Shown in pieces: positions 2,130 through 31,767 of a stretch of 32,604 bases of DNA (positions are counted from its first letter, which is position 1; the number at the start of each line of letters is the position of its first letter). The notes under the pieces were generated by a model. That model was given only the letters and a program-made list of their open reading frames with translations. It searched no databases and had not been told where the DNA came from. The DNA comes from an uncultured Adlercreutzia sp. (lineage in GTDB: Bacteria > Actinomycetota > Coriobacteriia > Coriobacteriales > Eggerthellaceae): contig CANEDU010000010.1 in NCBI GenBank assembly GCA_947426355.1, forward strand, positions 1 to 32,604, read 5' to 3'. A program made the position numbers and the translations under genes.

Positions 2130-2175
2130 TTTCTGCCTTCTTTCAAAATACGCCGCCCTGCCCGAGTCGGGGGCA

Positions 2176-2211
2176 GGCCAAAGGGCCCGGGTCTTCAGGT
2201 ACCCTTTGGCC
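2176..2211. repeat. Intergenic inverted repeat between oxc and the AEC gene
   Basis: GGCCAAAGGG (2176-2185) / CCCTTTGGCC (2202-2211), perfect 10-bp arms, no T-tract on either side. Confidence 0.6.
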
Positions 2212-2241
2212 GGTTACCCCTACAGGACGGCACAGCGATAG

Positions 2242-4023
2242 TTAATCGACGAGCTTGCCGTTCTCGCGATGCTCGGCGAGGTCTTCCTGCTCGTTTCCCA
2301 CAAGCGGGCCGGTGACCGGCTGCGGATTCAAGTACGTGATGTGTCCCGACTCCTTGCCGGAGTGGATGGAAAGCTCCACGCAGACCATCGTCGGCTTGCC
2401 CGAGGCAACACCGGCAGCCACGTACTTCTCAACCTCCTCGGGGGTTGTGGCGTAATAGCCCGTACCACCGAAGGCTTCCATGAGCTTCTCGTAATGGCCC
2501 AGAGCCGACAAGGTCAGAGGCGACGGATCGCCGTCGTCGCCCAGGTTCTTGAAGTCGCCGCGGTACACACCGCCGTTGTTCAGCACCACCACGGTGATCG
2601 GCAGCTGGTAGCGGCAGATCGTCTCCACCTCCATGCCGTCGAAGCCGAAAGCGGAGTCGCCGTGGATGGAAATGACCGGCTTGCCCGTCGTGGCCGCCGC
2701 GCCGATAGCGTAGGGCAAGCCCACGCCCATGACGCCCCAGGTGCCGCAGTCAAGGCGATGGCGCGGCAGGTACATGTCGATGATGTCGCGGCAGTCGTCC
2801 AGGGCGTTGGCTCCCTCGTTGGTGATGTACACATCCGGGTTCGCGTCGGTAACCTTCTTGATCGCGCCGAGCGCGTTGTAGTGGGTCATGGGCACCGTCG
2901 TCGCCGTCTCAGCGCCGCCGAAGCGGGCATTGTTCTTGGCGGAATCGGCCTGGATAGACTCAAGCCACGCCGGATCGGCCTTGTAGGGCTTCTTGGCGAG
3001 GTACTCGTTGAACATGCCGACAGTCGACTTCAAATCACCCACAACCGGGGCCGCGATGTAGCGGGAGTTGTCGATCTCGGTGGGGTCGATGTCAACCTGG
3101 ATGAACCTCACGTTCTCGTTCCAGGCCTTGCCCTTGCCGAAGTTCAGCATCCAGTTCAAGCGGGCGCCGAGCAGCACTACCACGTCGGCGTTGCGCATGG
3201 TCATGCCACGGGCGGACGCGGCGTTCTGCGGATGGTTGTCGGGCAAAAGACCCTTGGCCATAGACATGGCCAGATAAGGCGCGCCCGTCGATTCGACGAA
3301 CTGCTTCACTGCCTCGTCGCACTGGGCGTAGGCAGCGCCCTTGCCGAGATAGATCAGCGGCTTTTTCGCGGAGGCGAGCACTTCCATGGCCTGGTCGATG
3401 ATGCCTTGAGCCGGAATCTGGGCCGGAGCCGGGTCGTTCACCTCATAGAGCAACGCTTCAGCGGCATCCTTGGCGATAGTCTGGCCGAGCGTATCGCCCG
3501 GAAGATCGATGTACACACCACCGGGACGCCCCGAGCAGGCAGCGCGAATGGCGCGAGCCACCACCAGCGGGATATCCTCAACCTTATCGACGCGGTAGGC
3601 CGCCTTGGCAAAGGGCTTGGCGTAGTTCAGCTGGTCCATGCCCTCATAGTCGCCCTCGCCCAAATCGATGAGCTCGCGGGAAGACGAGCCGGACATCATG
3701 ATGACAGGCCAGCCGTTCTCGGTCGCTTCCTTCAGCGGCACGATGCCGTTCAGAAAGCCCGGGGCGGAAACGGTCAGATACAGGCCCGGCTTGCCGGTGA
3801 TAAAGCCCTCAGCTGCAGCAGCGTTGCCGGCGTCCGACTCATGGCGAAGGCCAAGGTAGCGAATGCCCTTGGCCTGGGCGATACGAGCCACATCGGTCAC
3901 CGGAATGCCGATAACGCCGTACATCCTTTCGAAATGGTTTTTCAGCAGCGTTTCCACCAGCACATGGAAACCGTCGGTAAGGTCGGTCTGCGCGGCGGGA
4001 GCTGCTTGAGTGGTGGTAGCCAT
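2242..4023 (-). CDS. oxc: Oxalyl-CoA decarboxylase (ThDP-dependent)
   Basis: MATTTQAAPAAQTDLTDGFHVLVETLLKNHFERMYGVIGIPVTDVARIAQAKGIRYLGLRHESDAGNAAAAEGFITGKPGLYLTVSAPGFLNG...; ThDP enzyme motifs (HGDSAFGFDGMEVETICRYQLPITVVVLNNGG). AGGAGG 5 nt upstream of the ATG at 4023 argues for this start over the longer ORF. Confidence 0.93.
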   Translation of the reverse strand: MATTTQAAPAAQTDLTDGFHVLVETLLKNHFERMYGVIGIPVTDVARIAQAKGIRYLGLRHESDAGNAAAAEGFITGKPGLYLTVSAPGFLNGIVPLKEATENGWPVIMMSGSSSRELIDLGEGDYEGMDQLNYAKPFAKAAYRVDKVEDIPLVVARAIRAACSGRPGGVYIDLPGDTLGQTIAKDAAEALLYEVNDPAPAQIPAQGIIDQAMEVLASAKKPLIYLGKGAAYAQCDEAVKQFVESTGAPYLAMSMAKGLLPDNHPQNAASARGMTMRNADVVVLLGARLNWMLNFGKGKAWNENVRFIQVDIDPTEIDNSRYIAAPVVGDLKSTVGMFNEYLAKKPYKADPAWLESIQADSAKNNARFGGAETATTVPMTHYNALGAIKKVTDANPDVYITNEGANALDDCRDIIDMYLPRHRLDCGTWGVMGVGLPYAIGAAATTGKPVISIHGDSAFGFDGMEVETICRYQLPITVVVLNNGGVYRGDFKNLGDDGDPSPLTLSALGHYEKLMEAFGGTGYYATTPEEVEKYVAAGVASGKPTMVCVELSIHSGKESGHITYLNPQPVTGPLVGNEQEDLAEHRENGKLVD

Positions 4024-4330
4024 AGGTGCCTCCTGTTGTTGAGTCATACTCTTCCTCGGGACACCTCCCACCCTGCGGCGGCTCATATCGCCGCTCCGTC
4101 AAGGTGGTCTTTGCGGCAAAACAGTAGCCTACAGACCCAGCGGGGGAAATGCCTCGTACTGCAATATAGACGCCCCCATCTGGCCTCTCCGTCTTTCACG
4201 AGCCTATGTTGGCACCAGGTTACCGAACTGCATTGGAAAGGCAATCTGCCTCGTCAACTACGCAATACGCACGAGGGCTATAATCGAAATGAGCCTATTG
4301 GGCGCATGAAATATAAGAGGAGTGAGGAAG

Positions 4331-5764
4331 ATGGCCTCCCGAGACAAACGCGAGCACGAAATCGTCAAAGCGAGCTTCGTCGGCATCGCCGGCAACATGC
4401 TGCTCGTGGTTTTCAAGCTGATCGTCGGCTTTATGTCGAATTCCATCGCCATCATCCTAGACGCGGTGAACAACGCCACCGACGCGCTGTCCTCCATCGT
4501 CACCATCGTGGGCACCAAGCTCGCCGGCATGCGCCCGAACCGCCGCCATCCCTTCGGCTACGGCCGCATCGAGTACCTCACCTCGGTCATCATCGCCATC
4601 ATCATCTTGGTGGCCGGCGCCCTTTCTCTGCGCGAGTCCATCGACAAAATCATGCACCCGGCCGTCACGAACTACACCGCCCTCACCATTGCCGTCGTCG
4701 TAGTGGCCATCATCGCAAAGGTGTTCATCGGCATCTACTTCAAGCGCGCCGGCGACAAGACCAACTCCCAAGCGCTCATTGCCTCGGGCATCGATTCCAA
4801 CTACGACGCGGTGCTCTCGGCAGGCACGCTGGTGGTGGCCATCGCCCAGCTCGCCTGGAACATCAACATCGACGGCATCGTGGGCCTTATCATCTCGCTT
4901 GTGGTAGTGAAGGCGGGCCTCGAAGTGCTCATCGACGCCCTCGGCCCCATCATCGGCACCCGCGAAGACGACACGTTCGGCCAGGAGATTTTGAACTACG
5001 TGAACTCCTATCCCGACGTGCGCGGCACCTATGATTTGCTGCTCGACAACTTCGGCCCCAACGAGATTATCGGCAACCTCCACATCGAAGTGCCCGACAG
5101 CATGACGGCCCGGCAGATTCACGAGCTTACGCGCAACATCTCCGTGGGTCTCCACGAGAAGTTCAACGTGCTGGCCACCGTGGGCATCTACGCCGACAAC
5201 ACGACCGGCGCGTTCGCCCCTCTGCGCGCCTATCTGCAGCACCTTGTGAAAGACGAGCCGAGCATCCTGCAGACCCACGGCTTCTACGTGGACGCAGAAG
5301 CCAAGATGGTCTTCTTCGATCTGGTCATCGATTTCAAAGCCGACGCCGAAGCCATCCGCAGCAAAATCGTCGACGCCATGAAGGCGGCCTACCCCGATTT
5401 CGACTACAGCGTCATCGTGGACCTGGACTCCCCCCGGTCCCGCCCCGAACGACGCCCCCGCGCCACCCCCCTGCTGCCGTCATGCTCCCAGATTCGCGCC
5501 TCGCCCCCCCCCCCCCCCGGAGTTTTGCATGGCTCCGCAAGGCTCGTCGCAGATGAGATGCTCGATGCCTACGCCAAGGCAATCGGCAATCTTGGCGAGG
5601 GTGCGCAGGGTCAGGTTCTTCTTCCCTGCTTCAATCTCGCTCATATAGGATTTCGTCATGTGGGTCATAAGGGCGAGCTGCGACTGGGAAATGCCCTGCT
5701 TCGTCCTTACATCGCGGATTCTCCGCCCCACGGTTTTCTGTATGTTCTTCCCCATGGCGGCTAG
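4331..5764 (+). CDS. Cation diffusion facilitator (CDF) family transporter with an atypical C-terminal extension reading through a poly-C tract
   Basis: MASRDKREHEIVKASFVGIAGNMLLVVFKLIVGFMSNSIAIILDAVNNATDALSSIVTIVG...; CDF TM and cytoplasmic domains end near SVIVDLDSP (about 5430). The rest is antisense to the XRE gene and includes PPPPP. RBS GAGGAGTGAGGAAG. Confidence 0.85.
   Translation: MASRDKREHEIVKASFVGIAGNMLLVVFKLIVGFMSNSIAIILDAVNNATDALSSIVTIVGTKLAGMRPNRRHPFGYGRIEYLTSVIIAIIILVAGALSLRESIDKIMHPAVTNYTALTIAVVVVAIIAKVFIGIYFKRAGDKTNSQALIASGIDSNYDAVLSAGTLVVAIAQLAWNINIDGIVGLIISLVVVKAGLEVLIDALGPIIGTREDDTFGQEILNYVNSYPDVRGTYDLLLDNFGPNEIIGNLHIEVPDSMTARQIHELTRNISVGLHEKFNVLATVGIYADNTTGAFAPLRAYLQHLVKDEPSILQTHGFYVDAEAKMVFFDLVIDFKADAEAIRSKIVDAMKAAYPDFDYSVIVDLDSPRSRPERRPRATPLLPSCSQIRASPPPPPGVLHGSARLVADEMLDAYAKAIGNLGEGAQGQVLLPCFNLAHIGFRHVGHKGELRLGNALLRPYIADSPPHGFLYVLPHGG
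5480..5755 (-). CDS. Small XRE/Cro-CI family HTH regulator with poly-glycine tract near its C-terminus
   Basis: MGKNIQKTVGRRIRDVRTKQGISQSQLALMTHMTKSYMSEIEAGKKNLTLRTLAKIADCLGVGIEHLI... is a clear HTH_3 domain; C-terminus ...NSGGGGGRGANLGA. Confidence 0.85.
   Translation of the reverse strand: MGKNIQKTVGRRIRDVRTKQGISQSQLALMTHMTKSYMSEIEAGKKNLTLRTLAKIADCLGVGIEHLICDEPCGAMQNSGGGGGRGANLGA
5504..5518. repeat. Homopolymer C15 (G15 on minus strand)
   Basis: Direct count: tcg-CCCCCCCCCCCCCCC-gg at 5504-5518, inside both the XRE ORF (Gly5) and the CDF ORF extension (Pro5). Confidence 0.95.
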
Positions 5765-5832
5765 ACTACCGTGACCGTGCCAGGCCCCGTTTTCTTATAT
5801 ATGAACCCAAAGCTGAAAGGTTGCAAAAATAC

Positions 5833-5872
5833 AGAAGACGCTGGGACCTTTTTGAAAATCCCAGCGTCTTCT
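5833..5872 (-). terminator. Intrinsic terminator downstream of frc
   Basis: Perfect 14-bp inverted repeat AGAAGACGCTGGGA / TCCCAGCGTCTTCT with 12-nt loop; followed on the minus strand by GTATTTTTGC. Confidence 0.8.
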
Positions 5873-5925
5873 CATTGACTCACATTGCGCTTGTGGGCCG
5901 CGCGTGACTCAGCGTCTGCTCAGCG

Positions 5926-7290
5926 TTACTTGGAGGCTTTCTTCATCTGCTGATACTCCTCGTAGGTGATGACTTTCACCGCCGGGTTCGACGGCTGCTC
6001 GGGCGCCTGCAGAACGCCGCTTTGGGTGAACTGCTGCACCTCATCGGCGCTATAGCCCAAGCTCTCCAGAATCTCGGCGTTGTTCTCGCCCAAGTCAGGA
6101 GCGCGCTTGTAGTCCGGCTTGAAGTTCGACATGGTGAAGGGAAGCCCGATGGTCTTGAACTTGCCGCGGGCGCCGCCCTGGTCGATCTCGGGAATGGTGC
6201 CGTCGGCCAAAAGATCGGGGTCGTTCTCAATCTCGTACCAGTCGAGCACCGGGCCCACCGGCACGCCAGCTGCGCCCAGCTTGTCGGTCAGCTCGTACTT
6301 GTCGTACTGCTTGGTGTACTCCTCGATGATGGGGTACAGCTCGTCTTTGTGCAGCTGACGGTTGTTCCACGGCGTGAACTTCGGGTCGTCGGCCAGCTCG
6401 GGCTTGCCGATGGCCTCGCACAGGCCCTTGAAGGCCTTCTCGGAGTTCTGCACCACGATGTACACATAGGCGTTCGGGTCGGTCTCCCAGCCCTTGGCCT
6501 TGTAGCACCAGCCGATGACCTGGCCGCCCTCGGTGTTCTCGGCGCGCGGGATGGCGCGGCCCCAGTTCCAGTCGGGGTACACCTCGTAGTGCGGCAGCGC
6601 CCCCATGTTGTCCAGCATAATCTGGTCGCGCAGCTTGATGCGGCACAGGTTCAGCACGGCGTTCTGCATGGACTGGTACACGTAGCAACCCTCGCCGGTG
6701 TGCTCGCGCTGCAATAGCGCGGACAGAATGCCGATGGTCAGATGCATGCCAGTATTGGAGTCGCCCAAAGCAGCGGCCGACTGGGTGGGCACGTTGAACG
6801 AGCCCTCGTTCCAGCCGGTGGTGGAGGCAGCGCCGCCGGCCGACTGGGCCACCGGCTCGAAGGCCTTCACATGGGCAAAGCGGCTCTTCTGGCCGAAGCC
6901 CTTAAGCGACGCCATGATGCAGCGCGGGTTGATGGCGTGCACCTGCTCCCAGCCAAAGCCCATCTTCTCGACATCGCCGGGGCCGATGTTCTCAACGAAG
7001 ACGTCGGCCTCTTTCAAAAGCTTCGTCAGAACCTCTTTGCCCTCGGGGGTCTTCACATTCAGGGTAAGAGATTTCTTGTTCGCGTTCAGCTGGAGGTAGT
7101 AGACGCTCCAGGAATCGGCGATGTCGAGCAGCTCGGTGCGGGTCGGGTCGCCGCCGGGCCGCTCAATCTTGATGACCTCGGCGCCCATCCAGGCAAGCAG
7201 CTGGGTGCAGGAAGGACCAGACTGGACCTCGGTCCAGTCGATGACTTTCATACCCGCCAAAGGAGCAGTGGAATTGTTTGCAGTAGTCAC
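5926..7290 (-). CDS. frc: Formyl-CoA:oxalate CoA-transferase (CaiB/BaiF family)
   Basis: ...GMKVIDWTEVQSGPSCTQLLAWMGAEVIKIERPGGDPTRTELLDI...VKAFEPVAQSAGGAASTTGWNEG...AALGDSNTGMHLTIGILSALLQREHTGEG...KGWETDPNAYVYI matches remembered Frc sequences along its length. Confidence 0.92.
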   Translation of the reverse strand: MTTANNSTAPLAGMKVIDWTEVQSGPSCTQLLAWMGAEVIKIERPGGDPTRTELLDIADSWSVYYLQLNANKKSLTLNVKTPEGKEVLTKLLKEADVFVENIGPGDVEKMGFGWEQVHAINPRCIMASLKGFGQKSRFAHVKAFEPVAQSAGGAASTTGWNEGSFNVPTQSAAALGDSNTGMHLTIGILSALLQREHTGEGCYVYQSMQNAVLNLCRIKLRDQIMLDNMGALPHYEVYPDWNWGRAIPRAENTEGGQVIGWCYKAKGWETDPNAYVYIVVQNSEKAFKGLCEAIGKPELADDPKFTPWNNRQLHKDELYPIIEEYTKQYDKYELTDKLGAAGVPVGPVLDWYEIENDPDLLADGTIPEIDQGGARGKFKTIGLPFTMSNFKPDYKRAPDLGENNAEILESLGYSADEVQQFTQSGVLQAPEQPSNPAVKVITYEEYQQMKKASK

Positions 7291-12415: not shown

Positions 12416-13831
12416 CTACTCCTGCGGCGCAGTCTCCCGTTGGTCGATGCCCAGAAGATCGAACAGCTCCTGACGCGTATGGATGTCCAGCTTCTGGTAG
12501 ATATGACGCACGTGGGCTTTGGCCGTGCCGTTGGCGATGAGCAGCTCGCGCTCGATAATGCCCACGGTCTTATGCTGGGCCAGCAGCAAGAGCACCTCCT
12601 CCTCGCGGGCCGACAGCTTGTAGGTGCGCGCGATTTCGGTGCAGCGGTCGGCGAGCTCCTGCTTGTGAATCATGTCCGCAGAGTCCGTGCCGCCGGCAAG
12701 GAAATTGGCGCCCCAGCGACTCGAGAGATCACGCTCGGAGAGCAGCACCATCGTGGCAAACACCACAGCCACCACGGCGAGCACCGATACGGCCACGTCT
12801 CCCATAGCGCCGAAGGCTTCGAAGCCCTCCACACCGTCGGCCGTTACGCGTCCAAGCCACATGAACACCTGGCGCACCCCTCGCTCGATGCCAAAGAGCC
12901 AGACCGCCGAAACGCCATAGCGATAGCAGATATTGGCGCAAATAAGCATGATGAGAATCGACTGCGCCGTATAAGCCGCCGTCATGCAAAAGTTCGCCGC
13001 CTGTCCCGGCACATGTCCGAAAACCGGCACGAGGAACAGGGCGATGACCGTGAGGGGCAGTGCGAAGCGATAGATGAGCGAGAAATCGAAGCGGCCGCCG
13101 CGGAAGGCGACTCCCAAAAAGACAAGGACCGCCACGCATACGGCTCCAGGAGCCGAATGGGGGCCGAAGGACCCCACGTACATGCCGCCTTCCATAAGGC
13201 CGTAACCGAAAGCGTAGGCCGCCATAAACAGCACGGCTTTCCACGGCACGGAGAACTGGGTCCACGTTGTTGCCGGACGCTCGGGCGGCGGCAACAGAGA
13301 GAAGCCGCGGCGGGCGGCCATGAGCGACACGGCGGGCAGAAGAGCCGTCATAACGAACAACCACGGCAGCATGAAGCCGCGATACATGTACAGCACCAAG
13401 GCGCCGACAACGATGGAAGCCGAATAGTACAGCGCAACACGCAAAGGGTTAAGACAGCCGTACAACTCGCTCCAAACGAGAATCATCAAGGCAATGCCGA
13501 AGCCACCCACCACGGCGGCCACATACCCCGACCACGAGGCTACCGTCGGCACCCAGCAGCTCGCGAACATCAACACCGTCGAAACCGTCAGAGCCACCCC
13601 GCCGAGCACAAACGGCGCACGCTTGTTGAAGAACGGGCCAATGCGGCGAGCAAGCAGCGTGCACGCGATGGCAGTCGCCACCATGGTCCAATCGAAGAAA
13701 TCGCGCACCGTCACCGTGGCGGAGGGAAACGAAACGAACGTCCCCACAAACACAATCTCAATCCACGCGCGATAGAGTCCCAGGCCGAGGAAGACCACCG
13801 GTATGGCAAACGCAGCTTGCGCTCGTCGCAA
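12416..13831 (-). CDS. Polytopic membrane LuxR-family regulator
   Basis: About 12 hydrophobic segments followed by YKLSAREEEVLLLLAQHKTVGIIERELLIANGTAKAHVRHIYQKLDIHTRQELFDLL (LuxR HTH). Confidence 0.85.
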   Translation of the reverse strand: MRRAQAAFAIPVVFLGLGLYRAWIEIVFVGTFVSFPSATVTVRDFFDWTMVATAIACTLLARRIGPFFNKRAPFVLGGVALTVSTVLMFASCWVPTVASWSGYVAAVVGGFGIALMILVWSELYGCLNPLRVALYYSASIVVGALVLYMYRGFMLPWLFVMTALLPAVSLMAARRGFSLLPPPERPATTWTQFSVPWKAVLFMAAYAFGYGLMEGGMYVGSFGPHSAPGAVCVAVLVFLGVAFRGGRFDFSLIYRFALPLTVIALFLVPVFGHVPGQAANFCMTAAYTAQSILIMLICANICYRYGVSAVWLFGIERGVRQVFMWLGRVTADGVEGFEAFGAMGDVAVSVLAVVAVVFATMVLLSERDLSSRWGANFLAGGTDSADMIHKQELADRCTEIARTYKLSAREEEVLLLLAQHKTVGIIERELLIANGTAKAHVRHIYQKLDIHTRQELFDLLGIDQRETAPQE

Positions 13832-14057: not shown

Positions 14058-14218
14058 GCGGATAAGGGTCCTGGGTTACGAAATTAGACCATCATTTTGC
14101 CCCATCGGTCGATGCGCGAGGATGCTCGAGATTTTATGGTGTCGGCAGCAAGACGGCCGGATGCCGTTTGCGGAGCGCCGAAGCGCGGCGCTCGTCTAGC
14201 TTACCAAGGAGGGAATTT

Positions 14219-15832
14219 ATGGCTAGCATTTCTCGCAGGGATCTGTTCAAGTTCGGCGGCGTGGCCGCCGCGGGCGCCATGGGCGCGTCCATGCTCGGGG
14301 GCTGCGCGCCCCAGCAGCCGGTAGCCGCCACCGGCGAGGGCGCCGCGGCAGCCGGAGACGGCACCCCGGCGTTCTTCGTGAAGCCCGAGCCCATCACCGA
14401 CATCGCCGACACCCGCGATTACGTCTTCGTGGTCATCGGCGCCGGCGCTGCGGGCGTGCCCGCCGCCATCTCGGCCCACGAGGCCGGCGCGAAGGTGGCG
14501 CTGCTTCAGAAGGAGGCCACGGCGGTGTCCCAGGGCAACACCTGCGACTCCATCATCGTTGAAGAGACGGCTCCCGGCGGCGTGGAGGCCGTGGTGTCTC
14601 TCATCAACGCCGACTGCTGCCATATGTCCGATCGCGAGCAGGTGCGCCTGTGGGCCTACAACTCCGGCGAGGCCTTGAAGTGGCTGTGGAACATCGGCGA
14701 GCAGGCCGGCGCCCAGATGGTCGACTCCACCGCCAAGTGGACCAGCAACATCGGCAACATCAACGGCTACGACGTCACCTACTTCGCCTTCGACTTCGGT
14801 CCGAAGCCCTACAACACCGGCAACGGCATGCGCGACATCGCCGATTGGGCCGAGCAGCAGGGCGTTGAGATCTTCTACTCCACCCCGGCCGCCCAGCTCG
14901 TGCAGGACGAGTCCGGCGCCGTGACCGGCGTCATCGCCGAGGGCGCCGACGGCTACATCCAGTTCAATGCCGCCAAGGGCGTCATCGTGGCCACGGGCGA
15001 CTACGAGAACGACGACGAGATGATGGCCTACTACGAGCCGGCCATGGCCAACATCTACCGCAAGGAGCAGAACAAGACCGGCGACGGCCAGAAGATGATG
15101 GTGTGGGCGGGCGCCTGCATGGAGGACGCCTGCGGCTCCAAGGTGCAGCACGACTTCGACGCCGGCCCGGGCTCCATGGCCGACATGCCGTTCTTGGCCG
15201 TGAAGAACGATGGCTCGCGCTTCTGCAACGAGGCCGCCTGCGAGATGGCCGTCATGGGCAACTTCCTGCGCAGCGAGGCCGACCAGGGTTGGTACAGCCA
15301 GATCTTCGACAGCAACTACATGGCCGACACCGAGGGCTGGCCGGGAGTGGCCCTGCCGCCCGAGGCCATGGCGAGCTACATGCCCGAGGTCGAGGGCGAG
15401 AAGACCGGCGTCTACGAGAGCCTCATCAACACCTTCTCTGCCGATACCCTGGAAGAGCTCGGCCAGAAGCTCGGCCTGACCGACGTCGATGCCTTCGTGA
15501 AGACCGTCGAGCGCTACAACGAGCTGGCCGAGAAGGGCATCGATGAGGACATGGGCAAGCCGGCCCAGTTCCTGAAGGCCATCAAGCAGCCTCCCTTCTA
15601 CGGCATCCATCGTCACATCGGCCTGTCCACCATCATTCACGGCGTGAACGTGAACAAGGACATGCAGGTGCTGAACGCCGACGGCGAGCCCATCGAGGGT
15701 CTGTACGCCATCGGCAACTGCGCCGGCAACTTCTTCGGCAGCCCCGACTACCCCATGACCGTGCCCGGCCTCTCTCTCGGCCGCTGCCACACCCAGGGCT
15801 ACGTCGTCGGCCGCGCCGTGGCCGGCAAGTAA
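14219..15832 (+). CDS. Tat-exported lipoprotein FAD-dependent reductase (fumarate/urocanate reductase flavoprotein superfamily)
   Basis: MASISRRDLFKFGGVAAAGAMGASMLGGCAPQQP (Tat motif + lipobox), YVFVVIGAGAAGVPAAISAHEAGAKVALLQKE (FAD-binding), C-terminal GLYAIGNCAGNFFGSPDYPMTVPGLSLGRCHTQGYVVGRAVAG. AAGGAGGG upstream of the ATG. Confidence 0.88.
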   Translation: MASISRRDLFKFGGVAAAGAMGASMLGGCAPQQPVAATGEGAAAAGDGTPAFFVKPEPITDIADTRDYVFVVIGAGAAGVPAAISAHEAGAKVALLQKEATAVSQGNTCDSIIVEETAPGGVEAVVSLINADCCHMSDREQVRLWAYNSGEALKWLWNIGEQAGAQMVDSTAKWTSNIGNINGYDVTYFAFDFGPKPYNTGNGMRDIADWAEQQGVEIFYSTPAAQLVQDESGAVTGVIAEGADGYIQFNAAKGVIVATGDYENDDEMMAYYEPAMANIYRKEQNKTGDGQKMMVWAGACMEDACGSKVQHDFDAGPGSMADMPFLAVKNDGSRFCNEAACEMAVMGNFLRSEADQGWYSQIFDSNYMADTEGWPGVALPPEAMASYMPEVEGEKTGVYESLINTFSADTLEELGQKLGLTDVDAFVKTVERYNELAEKGIDEDMGKPAQFLKAIKQPPFYGIHRHIGLSTIIHGVNVNKDMQVLNADGEPIEGLYAIGNCAGNFFGSPDYPMTVPGLSLGRCHTQGYVVGRAVAGK

Positions 15833-24021: not shown

Positions 24022-24288
24022 CTATTTCGTGCCCGGTGCTTTGGGGGCCGAAGGAGCACCCGGGGCCTTGGGAGCTGCCGGGGCACCGGGAACACCAGGG
24101 GCCGCCGGGGCACCAGGGGCTGCTGGGGCGCCGGGAGCGCCCGGAGCAGGCGGGGCCGCCGGGGCGAGCGAACCTGCAGCAAGCTCAGCGCCGCAATGGG
24201 CACAAACCTGAACGCCCGGGTCGTTCATCTCTCCACACTGCGGACATTGTGTTGGCAGAGTTGAAACGTCTGAGGGTCTGAAGCACAT
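24022..24288 (-). CDS. Zinc-ribbon protein with Pro/Ala/Gly-rich low-complexity tail
   Basis: MCFRPSDVSTLPTQCPQCGEMNDPGVQVCAHCGAELAAGSLAPAAPPAPGAPGAPAAPGAPAAPGVPGAPAAPKAPGAPSAPKAPGTK; CPQC/CAHC zinc ribbon; RBS CAGGAG. Confidence 0.75.
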   Translation of the reverse strand: MCFRPSDVSTLPTQCPQCGEMNDPGVQVCAHCGAELAAGSLAPAAPPAPGAPGAPAAPGAPAAPGVPGAPAAPKAPGAPSAPKAPGTK

Positions 24289-24464
24289 AACTTTCTCCTG
24301 TCTAATCAACAAAACGGCCTAACGCTCAACGCCGCCACGGGCTGGCGCGCCTCTTGCAAGATGGAGCATCGCGCTTGGGCAGTGAACAGTCCGAGGGAGT
24401 GTTTTCTCAATTCACCCTCAAGGTGTGATAGCTCACACTCGCGCATCCAGACGCCATCAGCCCC

Positions 24465-24647
24465 TCACCGCGGTGTTGCATGAGCTTTTTCGAGAGATAC
24501 TCCCGGGCGCAGCGAAGCGCCGCAACGGGAGCAGCTCATTGATCCCGGGTTCAGAGGGGCGCCACATGTCGGACAAGGAAAGGGAGGCATAGGCCGATCG
24601 GGTTTCTTGCCGCATCGACCGCATCCCACGCAAGCATATCCGCACAT
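24465..24647 (-). CDS. Small (60 aa) zinc-ribbon protein
   Basis: MCGYACVGCGRCGKKPDRPMPPFPCPTCGAPLNPGSMSCSRCGASLRPGVSLEKAHATPR; CPTC/CSRC zinc ribbon plus CVGCGRC; RBS GGAGGGG upstream of ATG at 24647. Confidence 0.75.
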   Translation of the reverse strand: MCGYACVGCGRCGKKPDRPMPPFPCPTCGAPLNPGSMSCSRCGASLRPGVSLEKAHATPR

Positions 24648-24666
24648 ATCGCGCCCCTCCTTTAAA

Positions 24667-25002
24667 CTAGTTCGGCATCCAGAGCACCTGGCGAGGCTTC
24701 TTCTTGAACTCCTCAACCAGGTCATCGATGCGACCAAACTGCATGACCTGCGCGAGGCAGTGATGCACGCAGGCAGGCTGCTGATGATTCATTACGCGAC
24801 GAGCGCACAAATCGCAGCGATCGGAGGGCACGGGAACGTAGTTCCAGTTCCACTTGCCATCGGCATACTCGAAAGGCCCGTCCTCGAAGACGCGGATGCC
24901 GCGGGCCTCAGGCGGGAAGTCGTGAGTTTCCTCGCAAGCCACTTCGCAAGAATGGCAGTTCGTGCAGTACTCGTAGTCAATGAGAAGACCGTACTCGCTC
25001 AT
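24667..25002 (-). CDS. Small two-cluster 4Fe-4S electron-transfer subunit
   Basis: MSEYGLLIDYEYCTNCHSCEVACEETHDF...CDLCARRVMNHQQPACVHHC (8 Cys), DmsB/HybA-type fold start, no signal peptide; directly downstream of the Mo catalytic gene. ATG at 25011 is an alternative start. Confidence 0.85.
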   Translation of the reverse strand: MSEYGLLIDYEYCTNCHSCEVACEETHDFPPEARGIRVFEDGPFEYADGKWNWNYVPVPSDRCDLCARRVMNHQQPACVHHCLAQVMQFGRIDDLVEEFKKKPRQVLWMPN

Positions 25003-25016
25003 GTTCCTCATCCTTT

Positions 25017-27422
25017 CTAGCGGGCTGTCGGATCCAGCGTGGGATCATCGATGCGGAAGAAGTTGTCGGTGTGCACCAGCGGCTTGCCGTCCTCCCCTTC
25101 GAGTCCGAAACGATCGGCCTCGACAAGGTCGTCCTCGTGCGCCTTGGAAATCTTGACGAGCGTGGTGCGGAACGGAGCGCCAAAGCCGAGCTTGCCCATA
25201 CGGGAGTGGGGAATGAGCGTGTTGATGTTGGACTTCCACACACCGTAGAGATGCGGTGCCTCTGCATCTTCCTCCGGGAACCACCAGCCGTGCTGGGCCT
25301 GGATGTAGCCCTCCTTGATGATGGGGGTCACCTTGGCCTTCAGGAACGCCAGGCCCCACGGGTTCTCGATGCGCACCCAGTCGCCAGCCTTGATGCCGTA
25401 GGTCTCGGCGTCCTTCGGATTCAGCTCGACGAGCGGATCGGGGCACAGATCGCGCAGCTTCTCGATCTGTCGACCCTCGGAATGGAAGTAGCCGATCTCG
25501 CGAGCACCGCTCATCATGGTAAACGGGTACTCCTTGGCCAGCTCCGGCGTGGAAATCGGCGTTGTGGGAGCCTCGAAGTAGTAGGGCAGCGGATTCTCGC
25601 CCACGGCCTCGAACATCGGGCTGTACAGCTGGATGCGGCCCGTAGACGTGTTGAAGCCCTTGGCGCCATCGGGACGCAGCTTGCCGGTCTCGTATTTGCG
25701 ATAGGACACGTCGCGCTGGATGACAACCTTCTCTTGCAGCTCGTCGTAGTCGAACTCATAGGCACGCATCATGGCAATGTCGTAGAACTCCTTGAAATCC
25801 TTCTCTCGGTTTTCCCACGCCTCGGGATTCAGAGCCAAGCCCAGAATGCGGTAGAGTTCCCACTCGGGCACAGCCTCGCCGCACTTGACGCACTTGTTCA
25901 GAGCGCCGACGTAGTTCGGAGATCCGCCGTAGTGGGTCGGCACGATGGTCTCCATCTCAAGTGAAGAGGCCAGCGGCAGCACCACGTCGCAGCAACCCTG
26001 GATAGTCGGGGTCATCCATGTGTCGGTGGCGAAGTTGAAGTCCACCTTGCGCAGGGCGTCATACCAGCGCTTCGGCTGGGCGGAGCACGTAGGCGCAATG
26101 ATGTTAGTCTCGCCAAGCCACGTCAGATGGATGCCGTAGGGCTTGCCGGTTTCCAGGGCATCGAGTTGGCGATCAGCCTGGGACATTTTGAGGCCACCGG
26201 TGTAGAAGGGGAATTCCTCGCGGCCAATGATGGTGTCGCGCAGTTCCTGCTTCATCTCCGGCCAACCGACGGAATCGATGTCCTCCTGCATGCCACCGTC
26301 ACCGGCGGTCATGTCGACGAGCACCTGACCGCCAGGCACATCCATGTTGCCCGTAATGGACATAAGAGCGAGGATGGCCTGGCCAGCCTGAGAGCCGTTG
26401 GGGCTCTGATCGATGGACACGCCCCAGGCGATGGAAGCGGGCTTGGCGTTGGCATACAAGCGGGCGACGCGGATGATCTGCTCCTCGGGAACCTCGCAAA
26501 TCTCGGCGGCCTTCGAGGGCGGCATCTCCTTGACACGCTCGGCGAGCTGCTCGAAGCCATAGCACCACAAATCGACGAACTCAGCGTCGTAGAGCTTCTC
26601 CTCGATGATGACGTTAAGCATAGCCATGGCCAAAGCCGCATCAGTGCCGGGGCGCAGTCGCACGTTCTCGATGGCGCGGGAACCGGTCCACGTGATGCGG
26701 GGATTCACGTTGATGAGCTTGGCACCGCGCTTCATCAAATCGATAATGGCGTGACCGAAGAAGCCGTCGGGGCTTGAGTAGATGGGCTCCTTGCCCCACT
26801 GGATGATAATCTCGGGAACCGTGAAGGCCGGATCTTCGTAGCCGCCCGGCAGACCGCCAGCGTAGTCGATCTCAGGGTAGGAGGAGCCGATAACGTCCAT
26901 GGTGATGGACACACGCGGGCCGTAGCAAGAAAAGCCACTCAACGGGTAGCAGCCATTCGGCGTGCCGAGAACTCGATGGGCGCCCGTAGCGCCGATGTTG
27001 CCCTGGCGGCCCGTGCCCATGAAGGCCACCATGGACTGAACGCCGTACTTCTCCTTGACCTCATCGTAGTTCTTCTTGATGATGGCGATGGCCTCGTCCC
27101 AGCTGCAGCGCTCCCACTTATCCTTGCCGCGATCGGCGCGGTCGCGCTTCATCGGATAGATGATGCGATCGGGATGGTACAGGAAGTCCTTCATGGCCAG
27201 GCAGCGCACGCACAGACGACCCTTGGTAACCGGGTGGTTCTCGTCACCCTCGATCTTCACCACTTCGCCGTCCTTGACGTAAACCTTCAGACCGCATCCC
27301 ACAGGATGGCAGCCCGGAGCGGACCAGACGCAGGTACGGGTAACCGTGCAGCCGTCCTCCTCATAACGCCAGGGCTTTCCCACATCGTCCTGCATTTTTA
27401 CGGCATCATCATTGAATTCCAT
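25017..27422 (-). CDS. Molybdopterin (bis-MGD) oxidoreductase, acetylene hydratase / catechol-dehydroxylase-like clade
   Basis: MEFNDDAVKMQDDVGKPWRYEEDGCTVTRTCVWSAPGCHPVGCGLKVYVKDGEVVKIEGDENHPVTKGRLCVRCLAMKDFLYHPDRIIYPMKR...GTDAALAMAMLNVIIEEKLYD...PLPYYFEAPTTPISTPELAKEYP; 4Fe-4S Cys motif; no Tat signal; RBS CAGGAGG before the ATG at 27422. Confidence 0.88.
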   Translation of the reverse strand: MEFNDDAVKMQDDVGKPWRYEEDGCTVTRTCVWSAPGCHPVGCGLKVYVKDGEVVKIEGDENHPVTKGRLCVRCLAMKDFLYHPDRIIYPMKRDRADRGKDKWERCSWDEAIAIIKKNYDEVKEKYGVQSMVAFMGTGRQGNIGATGAHRVLGTPNGCYPLSGFSCYGPRVSITMDVIGSSYPEIDYAGGLPGGYEDPAFTVPEIIIQWGKEPIYSSPDGFFGHAIIDLMKRGAKLINVNPRITWTGSRAIENVRLRPGTDAALAMAMLNVIIEEKLYDAEFVDLWCYGFEQLAERVKEMPPSKAAEICEVPEEQIIRVARLYANAKPASIAWGVSIDQSPNGSQAGQAILALMSITGNMDVPGGQVLVDMTAGDGGMQEDIDSVGWPEMKQELRDTIIGREEFPFYTGGLKMSQADRQLDALETGKPYGIHLTWLGETNIIAPTCSAQPKRWYDALRKVDFNFATDTWMTPTIQGCCDVVLPLASSLEMETIVPTHYGGSPNYVGALNKCVKCGEAVPEWELYRILGLALNPEAWENREKDFKEFYDIAMMRAYEFDYDELQEKVVIQRDVSYRKYETGKLRPDGAKGFNTSTGRIQLYSPMFEAVGENPLPYYFEAPTTPISTPELAKEYPFTMMSGAREIGYFHSEGRQIEKLRDLCPDPLVELNPKDAETYGIKAGDWVRIENPWGLAFLKAKVTPIIKEGYIQAQHGWWFPEEDAEAPHLYGVWKSNINTLIPHSRMGKLGFGAPFRTTLVKISKAHEDDLVEADRFGLEGEDGKPLVHTDNFFRIDDPTLDPTAR

Positions 27423-27569
27423 GGTTTCCTCCTGTCTCAAGTGATGCCCTACAACTGGCGCACGGCGCACTCCGCCAAAGAACACCCCGTGTAAGCGCCA
27501 GACCTCCTAGTCACATTATTGAGAGTGGAGGGTGTGACAAAAAGACAGCAGTCTTTGGGTTCTGCTCCA

Positions 27570-27603
27570 AGATTGGAACAGAACTGTTCAATTGTTCCAA
27601 TCT
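27570..27603. promoter_or_regulatory. Candidate operator: 34-bp inverted repeat upstream of the Mo operon
   Basis: AGATTGGAACA-GAACTGTTCAAT-TGTTCCAATCT, perfect 11-bp arms, with inner palindrome GAACTGTTC; no T-tract, so unlikely to be a terminator. Confidence 0.7.
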
Positions 27604-27639
27604 GCGCCCAGAACGGCGTTATTGCAAGTCTGGCGGTGT

Positions 27640-28260
27640 TTAATACCCCGCCACAAGCGTTGTGAGAGGAAAGGCGAACTCGGGCGCATCCTGAGGGCTA
27701 TCCTCTATATCAAGCGCGTCATAGAGGCCACGAGGCACGGCGGATAGGAAGATGTCGATGTACTCCTCGGATTGGTCCGGGTCGCTGGACGACTGCCACT
27801 CCTTGATGCACTCGATGCTCATTTTCGCAAACGCCGTGATCTGAAAGGCTATCTTCTCGTCAGGAGCGCAACCCGTGGCCGCCTCGTATTGCTCGCGGTA
27901 GTGGATAACGAAGTTCTGCTCGATTGTGCGCTCCATGACGGTTTTGCCAATTGCCGACGAGCCTCGCATTTGAAAGAATCGCTCAATGAAACCCCGATTG
28001 TTGGCCACGAAGGCAAACAGACGGCGATGGCCCGTCTTCCAACCGCAGGTCACTCCAATCTGCCGAACGGAGTGCCAGGCCCCCTCCTCCATAAACCAGA
28101 TAGCAGCGTCGTATTTGTCCGTGAAGTTCCGGTAGAACGTCTGACGGGACACGCCAGCCTTGGCGCAAATATCAACCGTGCGTATCTCTTCAAGGGACCG
28201 TTCTACCATGAGCTCATTCATGGCACGCACGATAGCAATCTTGCTTTCCAGCGAGCCCAT
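27640..28260 (-). CDS. TetR/AcrR-family transcriptional regulator
   Basis: MGSLESKIAIVRAMNELMVERSLEEIRTVDICAKAGVSRQTFYRNFTDKYDAAIWFMEEG; RBS GAGGAGAGG. Confidence 0.88.
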   Translation of the reverse strand: MGSLESKIAIVRAMNELMVERSLEEIRTVDICAKAGVSRQTFYRNFTDKYDAAIWFMEEGAWHSVRQIGVTCGWKTGHRRLFAFVANNRGFIERFFQMRGSSAIGKTVMERTIEQNFVIHYREQYEAATGCAPDEKIAFQITAFAKMSIECIKEWQSSSDPDQSEEYIDIFLSAVPRGLYDALDIEDSPQDAPEFAFPLTTLVAGY

Positions 28261-28450: not shown

Positions 28451-30079
28451 CTAGGCGGTAGCGGCCGTTTCGCCCGCAACGTAGCCGGCAACCATGGCCT
28501 GGGAGTTCGACATGCCCATGCCCGAGCTCTCGTAGGCGTAGCCAAAGCGACGTCCCACGGTGTTGCCCGCGGCGAACAGGCCCGGGATAACCTCATGGTC
28601 GGCGTTCAGCACCTGGAACTTGTCGTTGGTGTGCACGCCGGCGATGGAGCACACGAACACCCACTTCTCGTTGAAGGCATAGAACGGCGGGTTCTTCACG
28701 GGGATGAGGTACTCGGAGCTCTTCATGAAGTCCTCGTCCACGCCCTTCTCGCACATCTCGTTGTAGCGCTCGATGGTGGCCGTGAAGGTGGCCGGATCCA
28801 CGTTGATGAGCTCGGCCAGCTCCTCCAGGGTATCGGCCTGGTACACGCCGGTGCCGCTCTTGGCGATGGTGTCCAGCACGTTCGGATCGATGCCGATGAA
28901 GCAGGGCATCAGCTTATCCTCGGTAGAGGAAATCTCCCACGTGAAAGCGCCGTTGGGCATAGAGGCTGCCGAGACCACCTGCTGTACCTGGTTCACGGGG
29001 AACAGGGCCTCGTTCATGTAGCGCATGCCGGCCTGGTCCACTTCCAGGTTCGGGCAGCCGATGTGGCCGCCGTTCGGCCAGCCGAGGAAGCCGTGGGGGC
29101 CGCCCTCCATCTCGGCGCCGGCCCAGCACATCATGCGGTGGCCGATGCCGTCGTCCATAGGCTCGGTGCTGGAAATGTCGTCGGCTTCCATGTACATGGT
29201 GTACACGTTGCCTTCCTCCAGCAGCTTCGACACCTTCTCCTGCTGGAACTTCTTCACCATGGCGGCGTTGCCGGCGTAGCTGCCCGTGCACACGATGACG
29301 CCCTTGGCGGCGTTGAACAGCGTGCGGGAGCCGTCCTCGGCCGTGGCGATGACGCCGGTCACGCGGCCGGCCTCGTCCTGCATAAGCACCTCGGCCTTGG
29401 TGTTGTAGCGAATGTCGGCGCCGTTATCGGCCAGGTAGGCGTGCATGCCCGCCAGGAACTCCTTGTAGTTGTCCTTCGTGGGATCGCCCAGCACCACGTT
29501 GATGTCGAACACGCGGTTCAGCCACAGCTCGGGCTCATCGGGCGCCGGAGAGCAGGTGAAGGGGATGTTCGCCGGGGTGAGCACCTTCTCGATGAGGGTG
29601 TCCACCAGCTCGCCGGAACGGTCGGCCCACACGCGCCACTGGCGAATGTCGCAGCGGTTGGCGGTATTGCCCACGATGTGGTAGACAATCTCCTTCGGAT
29701 CGTAGGTGGGCTTGCCGGACTGCTTCTGGAACTCGGAGTTCAGGAAGGAACCCTGGTTGCCGCCGTAGTGGAAGATCTTATTGCGCTCGAGCACAACCAC
29801 CTTCGCGCCGTTCTCCAGCGCGCCGAACGCGGAAAGCGAGCCAGCCACCGCAGAGCCGATGACCACCACGTCGGCATCGACCACGTTGTCGCAGTCGGCC
29901 TCGGTCAGCGCCGGCGCCTCGCCGAGCCAGTCCTCTTCAGTTGCCGCACCGGTCTCGGCCATGGACGTGTCCTTCGGCGCCGGGCTGCAGCCGGCCAGAC
30001 CGGCCAGAGCCGCAGCACCGCCGAGCATGGCGGAACCGGTCAGAAAGCTGCGACGCGAAATACCCTTCATATCAGTCAT
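28451..30079 (-). CDS. Tat-exported lipoprotein FAD-dependent reductase (fumarate reductase flavoprotein superfamily)
   Basis: MTDMKGISRRSFLTGSAMLGGAAALAGLAGCSPAPKD (Tat + lipobox), VVDADVVVIGSAVAGSLSAFGALENGAKVVVLERN; C-term GLFAAGNTVGRRFGYAYESSGMGMSNSQAMVAGYVAGETAATA; RBS GGAGGG at the 30079 start. Confidence 0.88.
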   Translation of the reverse strand: MTDMKGISRRSFLTGSAMLGGAAALAGLAGCSPAPKDTSMAETGAATEEDWLGEAPALTEADCDNVVDADVVVIGSAVAGSLSAFGALENGAKVVVLERNKIFHYGGNQGSFLNSEFQKQSGKPTYDPKEIVYHIVGNTANRCDIRQWRVWADRSGELVDTLIEKVLTPANIPFTCSPAPDEPELWLNRVFDINVVLGDPTKDNYKEFLAGMHAYLADNGADIRYNTKAEVLMQDEAGRVTGVIATAEDGSRTLFNAAKGVIVCTGSYAGNAAMVKKFQQEKVSKLLEEGNVYTMYMEADDISSTEPMDDGIGHRMMCWAGAEMEGGPHGFLGWPNGGHIGCPNLEVDQAGMRYMNEALFPVNQVQQVVSAASMPNGAFTWEISSTEDKLMPCFIGIDPNVLDTIAKSGTGVYQADTLEELAELINVDPATFTATIERYNEMCEKGVDEDFMKSSEYLIPVKNPPFYAFNEKWVFVCSIAGVHTNDKFQVLNADHEVIPGLFAAGNTVGRRFGYAYESSGMGMSNSQAMVAGYVAGETAATA

Positions 30080-30221
30080 TGTTTCCCTCCTTGCATAGAT
30101 GCCTTTTTCAAAAGCCGAGGGCCTCCGCCCTCTCACCCGCCGCGCTCCGCGGCTCTCAGGTGATGTCGTTATCATGGATGAAACACCTGGTGAAAGCATC
30201 ATCTAAACTAGTTGATATCCA

Positions 30222-30238
30222 TCCACTGAAGCAGTGGA
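30222..30238. promoter_or_regulatory. Candidate operator palindrome in reductase 3/LuxR divergent region
   Basis: TCCACTG-AAG-CAGTGGA, perfect 7-bp arms. Confidence 0.5.
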
Positions 30239-30324
30239 AACCGTCTTAGCCGCTGCCTGACGCAGGCGCGACGGGCGCGGCGGCCTGTGGTAAGCTGAGC
30301 CCGAACATTTGGGGGGAGGACACC

Positions 30325-31767
30325 ATGGGAGCAACGAGCACGGAGGCGAAGACCCGACAGCAGCGACTTGGAACCACGCTCGATCTGGGCGTCTACTGGG
30401 GCTGGATGAGCCTCGTCTTTTTCTCGACAGCCCTCACAGGCACCGGAGGCATCGCCTCAGTGGAATTGGCGAACTTCGTGGCCCTGGCCGTGAGCACGGC
30501 CGTAGTGGGCATCGTGGCGTTTCTCTCACCTGCCCTGGCGCAAAAAGTGGCCGAAGGCCGCCTGCTGCGCGCAGGGGCAACCCTGGCCGCGTCCGCTGGC
30601 ACGCTGCTGGTGCTCTGGGGAACGAGCGGCGATGCGCTGCTTGTTATCGGAGCTTGCTTGGTGGGGCTGCCCGAAGGGCTTCTCCTCTATCTTTTCGTCA
30701 ACCGAGCCCTCCGCCAATGCCAATCGGCGGAAGACGTCGTCATGCTGTTCTCGTGGGCTCTCCTCATAGCAGCTGCCCTGTATTTGGCGGTGGCCTTCCT
30801 CGGAGCCGCCGCTGGCTACGTCTGCGCCGCGCTTCCGCTGCTCTCCCTTGCGAGCCTCGCGGCAGATACGCGCAAGGAAGCCGTTCCGAGCAACGAGGAG
30901 GCCGGCGGGGAGACGGCAGAAGCGAGGCTCTCTTTTTGGGACGCCACCCGGAAGCTCCCTTGGAAGCTGCTGCTGGGCCTGGCCGTCTTCGGCATCGCCT
31001 TCGGCCTCATGCGCATTTCCGCCAGCAGCGCGTCAGTCGAGGTGTTCCAAGAGAGCTATCTGGCCCACACCCTTGCCCGAGCCGGCACGACCGTGGTGGC
31101 GCTGGTGCTTATCGGCAAGTTGAAAAAGGCCTACTGGGTGCTGAGCACCTTGCAGCTGCTTGCCTTTACGCTGGGCATTTGCAGCTACTGGCTGCCCTTT
31201 GAATCTACCGCCGTCCTCACGGTGGCCGCCACCACCGCGGGATACACCTGCCTTGAGCTCATGCTGTGGGCCGTGCTCTTCGAGTTGTTCCTGGAAACGA
31301 ACGTGGCCTTCAACACCTTGTACGGCATCGTGCGAGGGCTCGTCAGCCTGGCAACGCTCGTCGCCACCGGCTTCTCCCTTTTCGTCATGGCCTCCATGGC
31401 CGCCGGCATTGTGCATGTGGTGCTGCTCTTCTTCCTGCTGGCCATGATTTTGGTCTCGTCGCTTCTGTTCGGCAGCCGCAACGTGGCCTCGCTTTGGGGG
31501 CTCGAGCGACCCGCCATCGCCCCCGAAGCCACCGACACCGAGCAGGTCACGCAAGCTTTGGCTGAAAGCTACGGCCTCACGGCCCGCGAAACTGAGGTAA
31601 TGACGCTCCTGATGAAAGGCCGCAACGAGCCGTTCATATCGGAGGCGCTGTTCATTTCCCCTAGCACCACCCACAGCCACGTCAGCCACATCTATGCCAA
31701 GATCGGCGTCCACTCCCGCCAAGAGCTGCTCGACGTGGCCGAACAACGCTTGGCCGGCGACTCCTAA
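30325..31767 (+). CDS. Polytopic membrane LuxR-family regulator
   Basis: About 12 hydrophobic segments then YGLTARETEVMTLLMKGRNEPFISEALFISPSTTHSHVSHIYAKIGVHSRQELLDVAE; RBS GGGGGGAGGA. Confidence 0.85.
   Translation: MGATSTEAKTRQQRLGTTLDLGVYWGWMSLVFFSTALTGTGGIASVELANFVALAVSTAVVGIVAFLSPALAQKVAEGRLLRAGATLAASAGTLLVLWGTSGDALLVIGACLVGLPEGLLLYLFVNRALRQCQSAEDVVMLFSWALLIAAALYLAVAFLGAAAGYVCAALPLLSLASLAADTRKEAVPSNEEAGGETAEARLSFWDATRKLPWKLLLGLAVFGIAFGLMRISASSASVEVFQESYLAHTLARAGTTVVALVLIGKLKKAYWVLSTLQLLAFTLGICSYWLPFESTAVLTVAATTAGYTCLELMLWAVLFELFLETNVAFNTLYGIVRGLVSLATLVATGFSLFVMASMAAGIVHVVLLFFLLAMILVSSLLFGSRNVASLWGLERPAIAPEATDTEQVTQALAESYGLTARETEVMTLLMKGRNEPFISEALFISPSTTHSHVSHIYAKIGVHSRQELLDVAEQRLAGDS

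Follow-up and report, generated by a model that had tools for sequence, protein, structure and literature searches.

Cysteine-rich small proteins encoded beside a predicted cytoplasmic molybdenum dehydroxylase in an uncultured Adlercreutzia sp.

Operon organization and the class of the enzyme

We analyzed a 32,604-nucleotide stretch of DNA from an uncultured Adlercreutzia sp. (contig CANEDU010000010.1, positions 1 to 32,604, here called the window), whose source genome comprises 2.09 Mb in 230 contigs and is ~80% complete. The window contains an operon with genes, in this order and all on the minus strand, for a TetR-type regulator, an 801-amino-acid (aa) catalytic subunit of a molybdenum (Mo) enzyme, a 111-aa iron–sulfur (FeS) protein, and two ribbon proteins of 60 and 88 aa, referred to below as zn60 and MCFRP (zn88 family). 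The original prediction, made from the DNA letters, of four closely spaced genes on one strand was borne out: the four-gene operon is real, its open reading frames lie at the coordinates given below, and gaps of 14, 19 and 176 bp separate the catalytic, FeS, 60-aa and 88-aa genes. The unit had been drawn too small, however, because the upstream TetR gene on the same strand also belongs to it and travels with it. A Shine–Dalgarno-like stretch lies directly 5′ of every small gene. The features of the operon are as follows.

27640..28260, minus strand: TetR/DhaS-like regulator, member of the putatively transferable cassette (Pfam TetR_N; NCBIfam DhaS-like; ~80% identical and in the same position in 3/3 orthologous loci)
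25017..27422, minus strand: catalytic subunit, 801 aa, bis-molybdopterin guanine dinucleotide (bis-MGD) Mo/tungsten oxidoreductase, predicted Gordonibacter-type catechol dehydroxylase class (Pfam PF00384/PF01568/PF04879; 2e7z, E 2e-77; orthologs 89–92%)
27201..27311, minus strand: Cys38, Cys43, Cys71 and Cys74, predicted [4Fe-4S] site, PGCHPVGC...LCVRC (alignment of 47 relatives)
26925..26927, minus strand: codon of Cys166, predicted Mo ligand (Cys in 47/47 aligned relatives; aligns with an acetylene hydratase Cys)
24667..25002, minus strand: small FeS protein, 111 aa, eight Cys, two predicted [4Fe-4S] clusters (Cys pattern; Fer4 just below cut-off)
24654..24660, minus strand: GGAGGGG, ribosome-binding-site-like, before the 60-aa gene (sequence inspection)
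24465..24647, minus strand: 60-aa eight-Cys protein (zn60 family), Cx3Cx2Cx2C plus zinc ribbon (eight Cys invariant, 21/21)
24295..24299, minus strand: AGGAG, ribosome-binding-site-like, before the 88-aa gene (sequence inspection)
24022..24288, minus strand: 88-aa MCFRP protein (zn88 family), with MCFRP N-terminus, zinc ribbon and Pro/Ala/Gly-rich tail (invariant motifs, 25/25)
24556..28260, minus strand: TetR–catalytic–FeS–zn60 cassette common to several genera (single DNA block, 80–82% identity to the orthologous loci L059/L060/L061)

The catalytic subunit scored above the Pfam cut-offs for Molybdopterin, Molydop_binding and Molybdop_Fe4S4. Its closest solved relative is acetylene hydratase (2e7z, E 2e-77), with formate dehydrogenases and thiosulfate reductase giving weaker matches. 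A C-terminal likeness to acetylene hydratase, which had been put forward originally, is visible residue by residue, as PLPYYfEapTtpIStPELAKEYP in the window protein aligns with PLPYYhEplqTeISdPELAKEYP in 2e7z. Cys166, the predicted Mo ligand, is invariant in the alignment, and its counterpart is the acetylene hydratase Cys that serves as the tungsten ligand of that enzyme. The predicted FeS site, Cys38-x4-Cys43...Cys71-x2-Cys74, is similar in most of the enzyme class, many members having x3 for x4, and its four Cys are present in 42, 46, 45 and 42 of the 47 relatives, respectively. This C-x3/4-C...C-x2-C arrangement (residues 38–74 of the window protein) departs from the usual CxxCxxxC...C.

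The gene for the small FeS protein starts 14 bp downstream of the catalytic gene. Its product matches Fer4 families just under the Pfam cut-off, and the pattern CxxCxxCxxxC...CxxC...CxxxC was present in 74/74 related small subunits. A search of the first 60 residues for an SRRxF-type motif found no twin-arginine translocation (Tat) motif in either the catalytic or the FeS protein, and the operon lacks a membrane anchor gene, both as had been predicted. The Tat motifs ascribed to the nearby flavin reductases were likewise found, as SRRxFx in two of the three and, by eye, as ISRRDLF in the third (14168–15832).

In published Gordonibacter-type catechol dehydroxylases, the two subunits are thought to be cytoplasmic, the catalytic subunit has no Tat signal and is related to acetylene hydratase, and the partner is a small FeS protein. 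Membership of the window enzyme in this class is strongly supported by its match to this architecture, together with 2e7z as closest solved relative, the invariant predicted Mo-ligand Cys and the conserved eight-Cys small subunit. The traits of the Eggerthella type (Tat signal, four-cluster FeS subunit, membrane anchor) are all absent from this operon. The original prediction had proposed a reductive dehydroxylase or a transhydroxylase. Assignment to the acetylene-hydratase-related cytoplasmic dehydroxylases favors the former, whereas pyrogallol–phloroglucinol transhydroxylase (4v4c) matched with an E value of only 4e-11, compared with 2e-77 for acetylene hydratase, and is unlikely on sequence. 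The enzyme probably strips hydroxyl groups from plant-type catechols. A further candidate for comparison, the steroid 21-dehydroxylation cluster Elen_2451–2454, is described as FdhD, ferredoxin, Mo enzyme and SPFH protein, without ribbons, and was set aside.

Orthologs of the catalytic subunit (89–92% identity) occur in Gordonibacter pamelaeae 7-10-1-b, Adlercreutzia faecimuris and Enterorhabdus sp. P55; at the cut-off used, eight further genomes from the same genus as the window yielded none. The gene for Dodh, the 3,4-dihydroxyphenylacetic acid dehydroxylase, was located through published quantitative PCR primers. The forward primer hits a single gene per genome in five genomes of the genus Gordonibacter, and two of the five match both primers exactly. 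The window protein is 39% identical to Dodh. In a phylogenetic tree built without Cldh, Hcdh, Vadh, Eldh and Eadh sequences, it fell among Eggerthellaceae relatives, the Dodh clade (L183_1) being one of their groups, but in a well-supported sub-clade of its own. The comparison by phylogeny that had been called for puts it outside the Dodh clade, Dodh being the only characterized dehydroxylase placed.

All three orthologous loci share with the window, at 80–82% identity, a DNA block that extends from the TetR gene into zn60. On either side of it, no aligned homology to these loci was found, except that 66 bp in L060 matched another Mo gene. Since a single block is shared and nothing aligns outside it, we infer that the TetR, catalytic, FeS and zn60 genes were horizontally transferred as a unit. 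Conservation of both ribbon genes beside orthologous enzymes, on which the original prediction had been staked, held for the 60-aa gene, which adjoins the enzyme in 4/4 loci (window included), and in part for the 88-aa family, which is present in only 3/4, namely the window and two of the named loci. No MCFRP gene was found in the G. pamelaeae locus, where the downstream DNA is partly masked. In L059, L060 and L061, the gene after zn60 (~13030–13530) encodes a putative membrane protein of only ~165 aa that matched no Pfam family; this gene is missing from the window. An MCFRP gene comes next in two of the three loci.

Two ribbon families and their genomic link to Mo enzymes

The 60-aa protein matches a zinc-ribbon Pfam family above the cut-off, in agreement with its original description. 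That description is incomplete, because a further four-Cys motif (C2, C6, C9, C12) precedes the ribbon Cys (C25, C28, C39, C42), and all eight are invariant in 21/21 relatives, in which mean column identity is 34%. Judged by this pattern, the protein is more than a zinc ribbon. Relative to the catalytic gene, zn60 is on the same strand in 24/28 cases and downstream in 23/28, and its divergence parallels that of the catalytic subunit (Mantel r 0.42, P 0.0014, 13 non-redundant pairs).

A zinc-ribbon Pfam match above the cut-off was also obtained for the 88-aa protein. The MCFRP start and four ribbon Cys are invariant in 25/25 relatives and are followed by a Pro/Ala/Gly-rich tail. The family is expanded, with up to 29 matches in single Eggerthellaceae genomes.

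To examine the link between the ribbons and Mo enzymes, distances to the nearest PF00384 domain were compared with those in 5000 rotations, in which the clustering of Mo genes is kept. In one Gordonibacter genome (G066), a PF00384 domain is no more than 5 kb away from 18/19 MCFRP genes (rotation mean 3.8, maximum 10) and no more than 3 kb away from 12/13 zn60 genes (rotation mean 1.7, maximum 7). A second genome (G067) has 10/11 MCFRP genes, two of the eleven being short partial matches, and 7/7 zn60 genes within 5 kb of a Mo catalytic gene; the two genomes are not independent, because they belong to the same genus. Of 56 loci from many genera that were selected only for an MCFRP match, 45 contain a Mo catalytic gene no farther than 4.1 kb away. 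By a stricter BLAST criterion against the window enzyme, 37/57 MCFRP loci have the enzyme within 5 kb.

Across 140 genomes of the family, MCFRP is present in 50/58 genomes with the enzyme and in 4/82 without it (Fisher P 1e-24, uncorrected for kinship). Full-length forms of zn60 and MCFRP were confined to Eggerthellaceae among 397 genomes sampled from the phylum; the remaining matches set in only partway through the model and resemble generic ribbons or low-complexity tails.

The dodh locus carries an MCFRP gene ~230 bp upstream and a gene for a RanBP-type ribbon downstream. Additional small Cys-rich proteins (a RanBP-type ribbon of ~76 aa and a 117-aa protein) are encoded at the dodh-type loci L154, L165, L167, L169, L179 and L180, where the genes for small Cys-rich, MCFRP, catalytic, FeS and major facilitator superfamily (MFS) proteins stand in a conserved order. 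Genes for trigger-factor-like and FKBP-type proteins recur in MCFRP loci (L130, L134, L139, L140, L146, L151, L173 and others), which suggests locus-specific folding helpers.

Elsewhere in the window, positions 28451–31767 encode a Tat-type flavin reductase and a divergent LuxR-type membrane regulator, which form a substrate-inducible reductase pair typical of the family. At positions 1065–7290, inspection by eye suggested genes for a transporter of the AEC type, a CoA transferase and a thiamine-diphosphate enzyme resembling oxalyl-CoA decarboxylase, which together might form an oxalate pathway.

Candidate roles of the ribbon proteins

We propose that the operon encodes an inducible, cytoplasmic, two-subunit Mo dehydroxylase of the Gordonibacter type. 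By comparison with the family, the small two-cluster FeS protein would take up electrons and relay them, by way of the catalytic subunit's [4Fe-4S] cluster, to a Cys-ligated Mo-bis-MGD center, which would reductively take a hydroxyl group off a catechol-like substrate. A TetR-type regulator, not the usual membrane LuxR, is probably in control. The zn60 and MCFRP proteins would most likely be accessory factors for making enzymes of this class, not catalytic subunits: their Cys sites are predicted to bind Zn or Fe, and they might hold apo-subunits while the cofactor or FeS cluster goes in, by analogy with FdhE. Taken as a whole, an inducible cytoplasmic Mo dehydroxylase with ribbon accessory factors is the best explanation of the operon, and we give it an even chance of being correct. 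For the ribbons themselves, dedicated maturation is an assignment that we would put at even or a little below, because of where they stand in the operon, the repeated presence of trigger-factor and FKBP genes in MCFRP loci, the need of Eggerthella-type enzymes for accessory genes and the FdhE precedent. The broader statement, that Eggerthellaceae evolved two expanded, lineage-specific Cys-rich families as dedicated maturation or electron-transfer partners of cytoplasmic Mo dehydroxylases, is offered tentatively, at slightly less than even likelihood.

Several observations weigh against such a dedicated role, or against a strict requirement for the ribbons. Either ribbon lies within 1.5 kb of the enzyme in only 12/29 catalytic loci (41%); set against the 45/56 above, this indicates that the ribbons imply the enzyme far more than the reverse. 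At 11/56 MCFRP loci, no nearby Mo catalytic gene was found; at L131, L149, L162 and L164, where the surroundings likewise yielded no Mo gene, MCFRP has UvrA/EAL, FtsX, MFS or purine-permease genes as neighbors, which a maturation role leaves unexplained. One of the 11 loci, L123, is on a short contig and still has FeS and zn60 genes. MCFRP did not co-diverge with the neighboring enzyme in a mirror-tree/Mantel comparison (r 0.02, 17 pairs), and its link is therefore to a kind of locus more than to one partner. AlphaFold models of the two small proteins are of low confidence, with a mean predicted local distance difference test (pLDDT) score of 69 and 65 and values >80 in the ribbon part only. 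Finally, Gs Vadh is active in another host and (+)-Eldh1/2 are active in E. lenta, although these hosts may hold ribbon genes of their own.

The main rival to maturation is electron transfer by zn60, in which Cx3Cx2Cx2C would hold an FeS cluster or a rubredoxin-like Fe and feed the FeS subunit, with MCFRP being structural. This role is consistent with the eight invariant Cys, of which four lie outside the ribbon, with the placement of zn60 immediately after the FeS gene in the same orientation, and with an operon that encodes neither a membrane anchor nor another evident electron donor. We nevertheless consider it unlikely, at perhaps one chance in four, given that the Pfam matches of zn60 are to zinc ribbons only and not to a Fer4-type family, and that zn60 was not found beside many enzymes of the same class, which need another electron route. 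Methyl viologen drives purified members of the class, an observation that is silent on the natural donor.

Less likely still is a role for the ribbons as regulators or scaffolds. As small adaptors that bind DNA, RNA or protein, they would adjust the expression of these loci or use the Pro/Ala/Gly tail to bring pathway proteins together, and their association with Mo genes would then stem from the regulation of many substrate-induced loci. Such a role would suit the family size of MCFRP, its independence from the enzyme in the mirror-tree comparison, and the presence of MCFRP genes beside LuxR-regulated flavin-reductase loci and transporters as well; it fits poorly with the strong preference of the ribbons for Mo loci, which already have TetR, LuxR and LysR regulators. 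We regard hitchhiking as improbable and as the least likely of these readings; the ribbon genes would then be small mobile or island-associated genes that gather at dehydroxylase clusters and have no role connected with the enzyme. Dehydroxylase genes are clustered and horizontally spread, and the shared DNA block does not include the 88-aa gene, which was also not found in the G. pamelaeae locus, as hitchhiking would allow. The rotation control, however, keeps the Mo clustering and never reaches the observed 5-kb counts, while the invariant motifs, which show purifying selection, and the same-strand operon placement also argue against it.

Comparison with known systems

In the gut, what becomes of dietary polyphenols and of host neurotransmitters is altered by catechol dehydroxylases, hundreds of which have no assigned substrate, partly because expressing them is difficult. 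The new part of this work is two undescribed ribbon families that occur repeatedly beside Mo dehydroxylases and, on the evidence of gene neighborhoods, may help to build or power these enzymes. The original prediction that a role for the zinc ribbons had not been described agrees with the open literature searched: the ribbons are not mentioned in the main texts of catechol-dehydroxylase papers or in the open-literature search, which did not cover subscription papers or supplementary tables; the latter may already record co-induction. If the ribbons do assist in assembly or electron transfer, including them in expression constructs could bring many more of the enzymes within reach of testing, and the search for further members of the class would have the ribbon genes as markers.

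Acetylene hydratase of Pelobacter acetylenicus (2e7z) shares the C-terminal motif and the active-site Cys with the window enzyme. It is a single-subunit, non-redox hydratase; because an FeS partner is encoded here, net redox chemistry is expected, unlike in acetylene hydratase. The Eggerthella-type enzymes (Dadh, Hcdh, Cadh) belong to the same superfamily and have the same expected chemistry, but are Tat-exported, larger and composed of three subunits with a membrane anchor, none of which applies here. They require accessory proteins that are cluster-encoded and cluster-specific. FdhE, an assembly factor of respiratory formate dehydrogenase, is an iron-binding, rubredoxin-type protein that binds the catalytic subunits of Mo formate dehydrogenases. 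It resembles the ribbons, by analogy only, as a Cys-rich helper near a bis-MGD enzyme, and differs from them in its four CX2C motifs and Tat-exported clients, the proteins here being of 60 and 88 aa and the enzyme cytoplasmic.

The closest parallel is with the Gordonibacter-type enzymes (Dodh, Cldh/(-)-Eddh, Gp Hcdh, Gs Vadh, Eadh1-3), which likewise have two cytoplasmic subunits, a catalytic subunit of ~800 aa and a small 4Fe-4S subunit. The cytoplasmic Mo enzyme with a minimal FeS subunit that had been highlighted is therefore present as proposed, and its layout is not new, because it matches these published enzymes. The window operon differs from them in having a TetR regulator where LuxR or LysR is usual, in a cassette without an MFS gene, in the position of its enzyme outside the Dodh clade, and in the attached zn60 and MCFRP genes.

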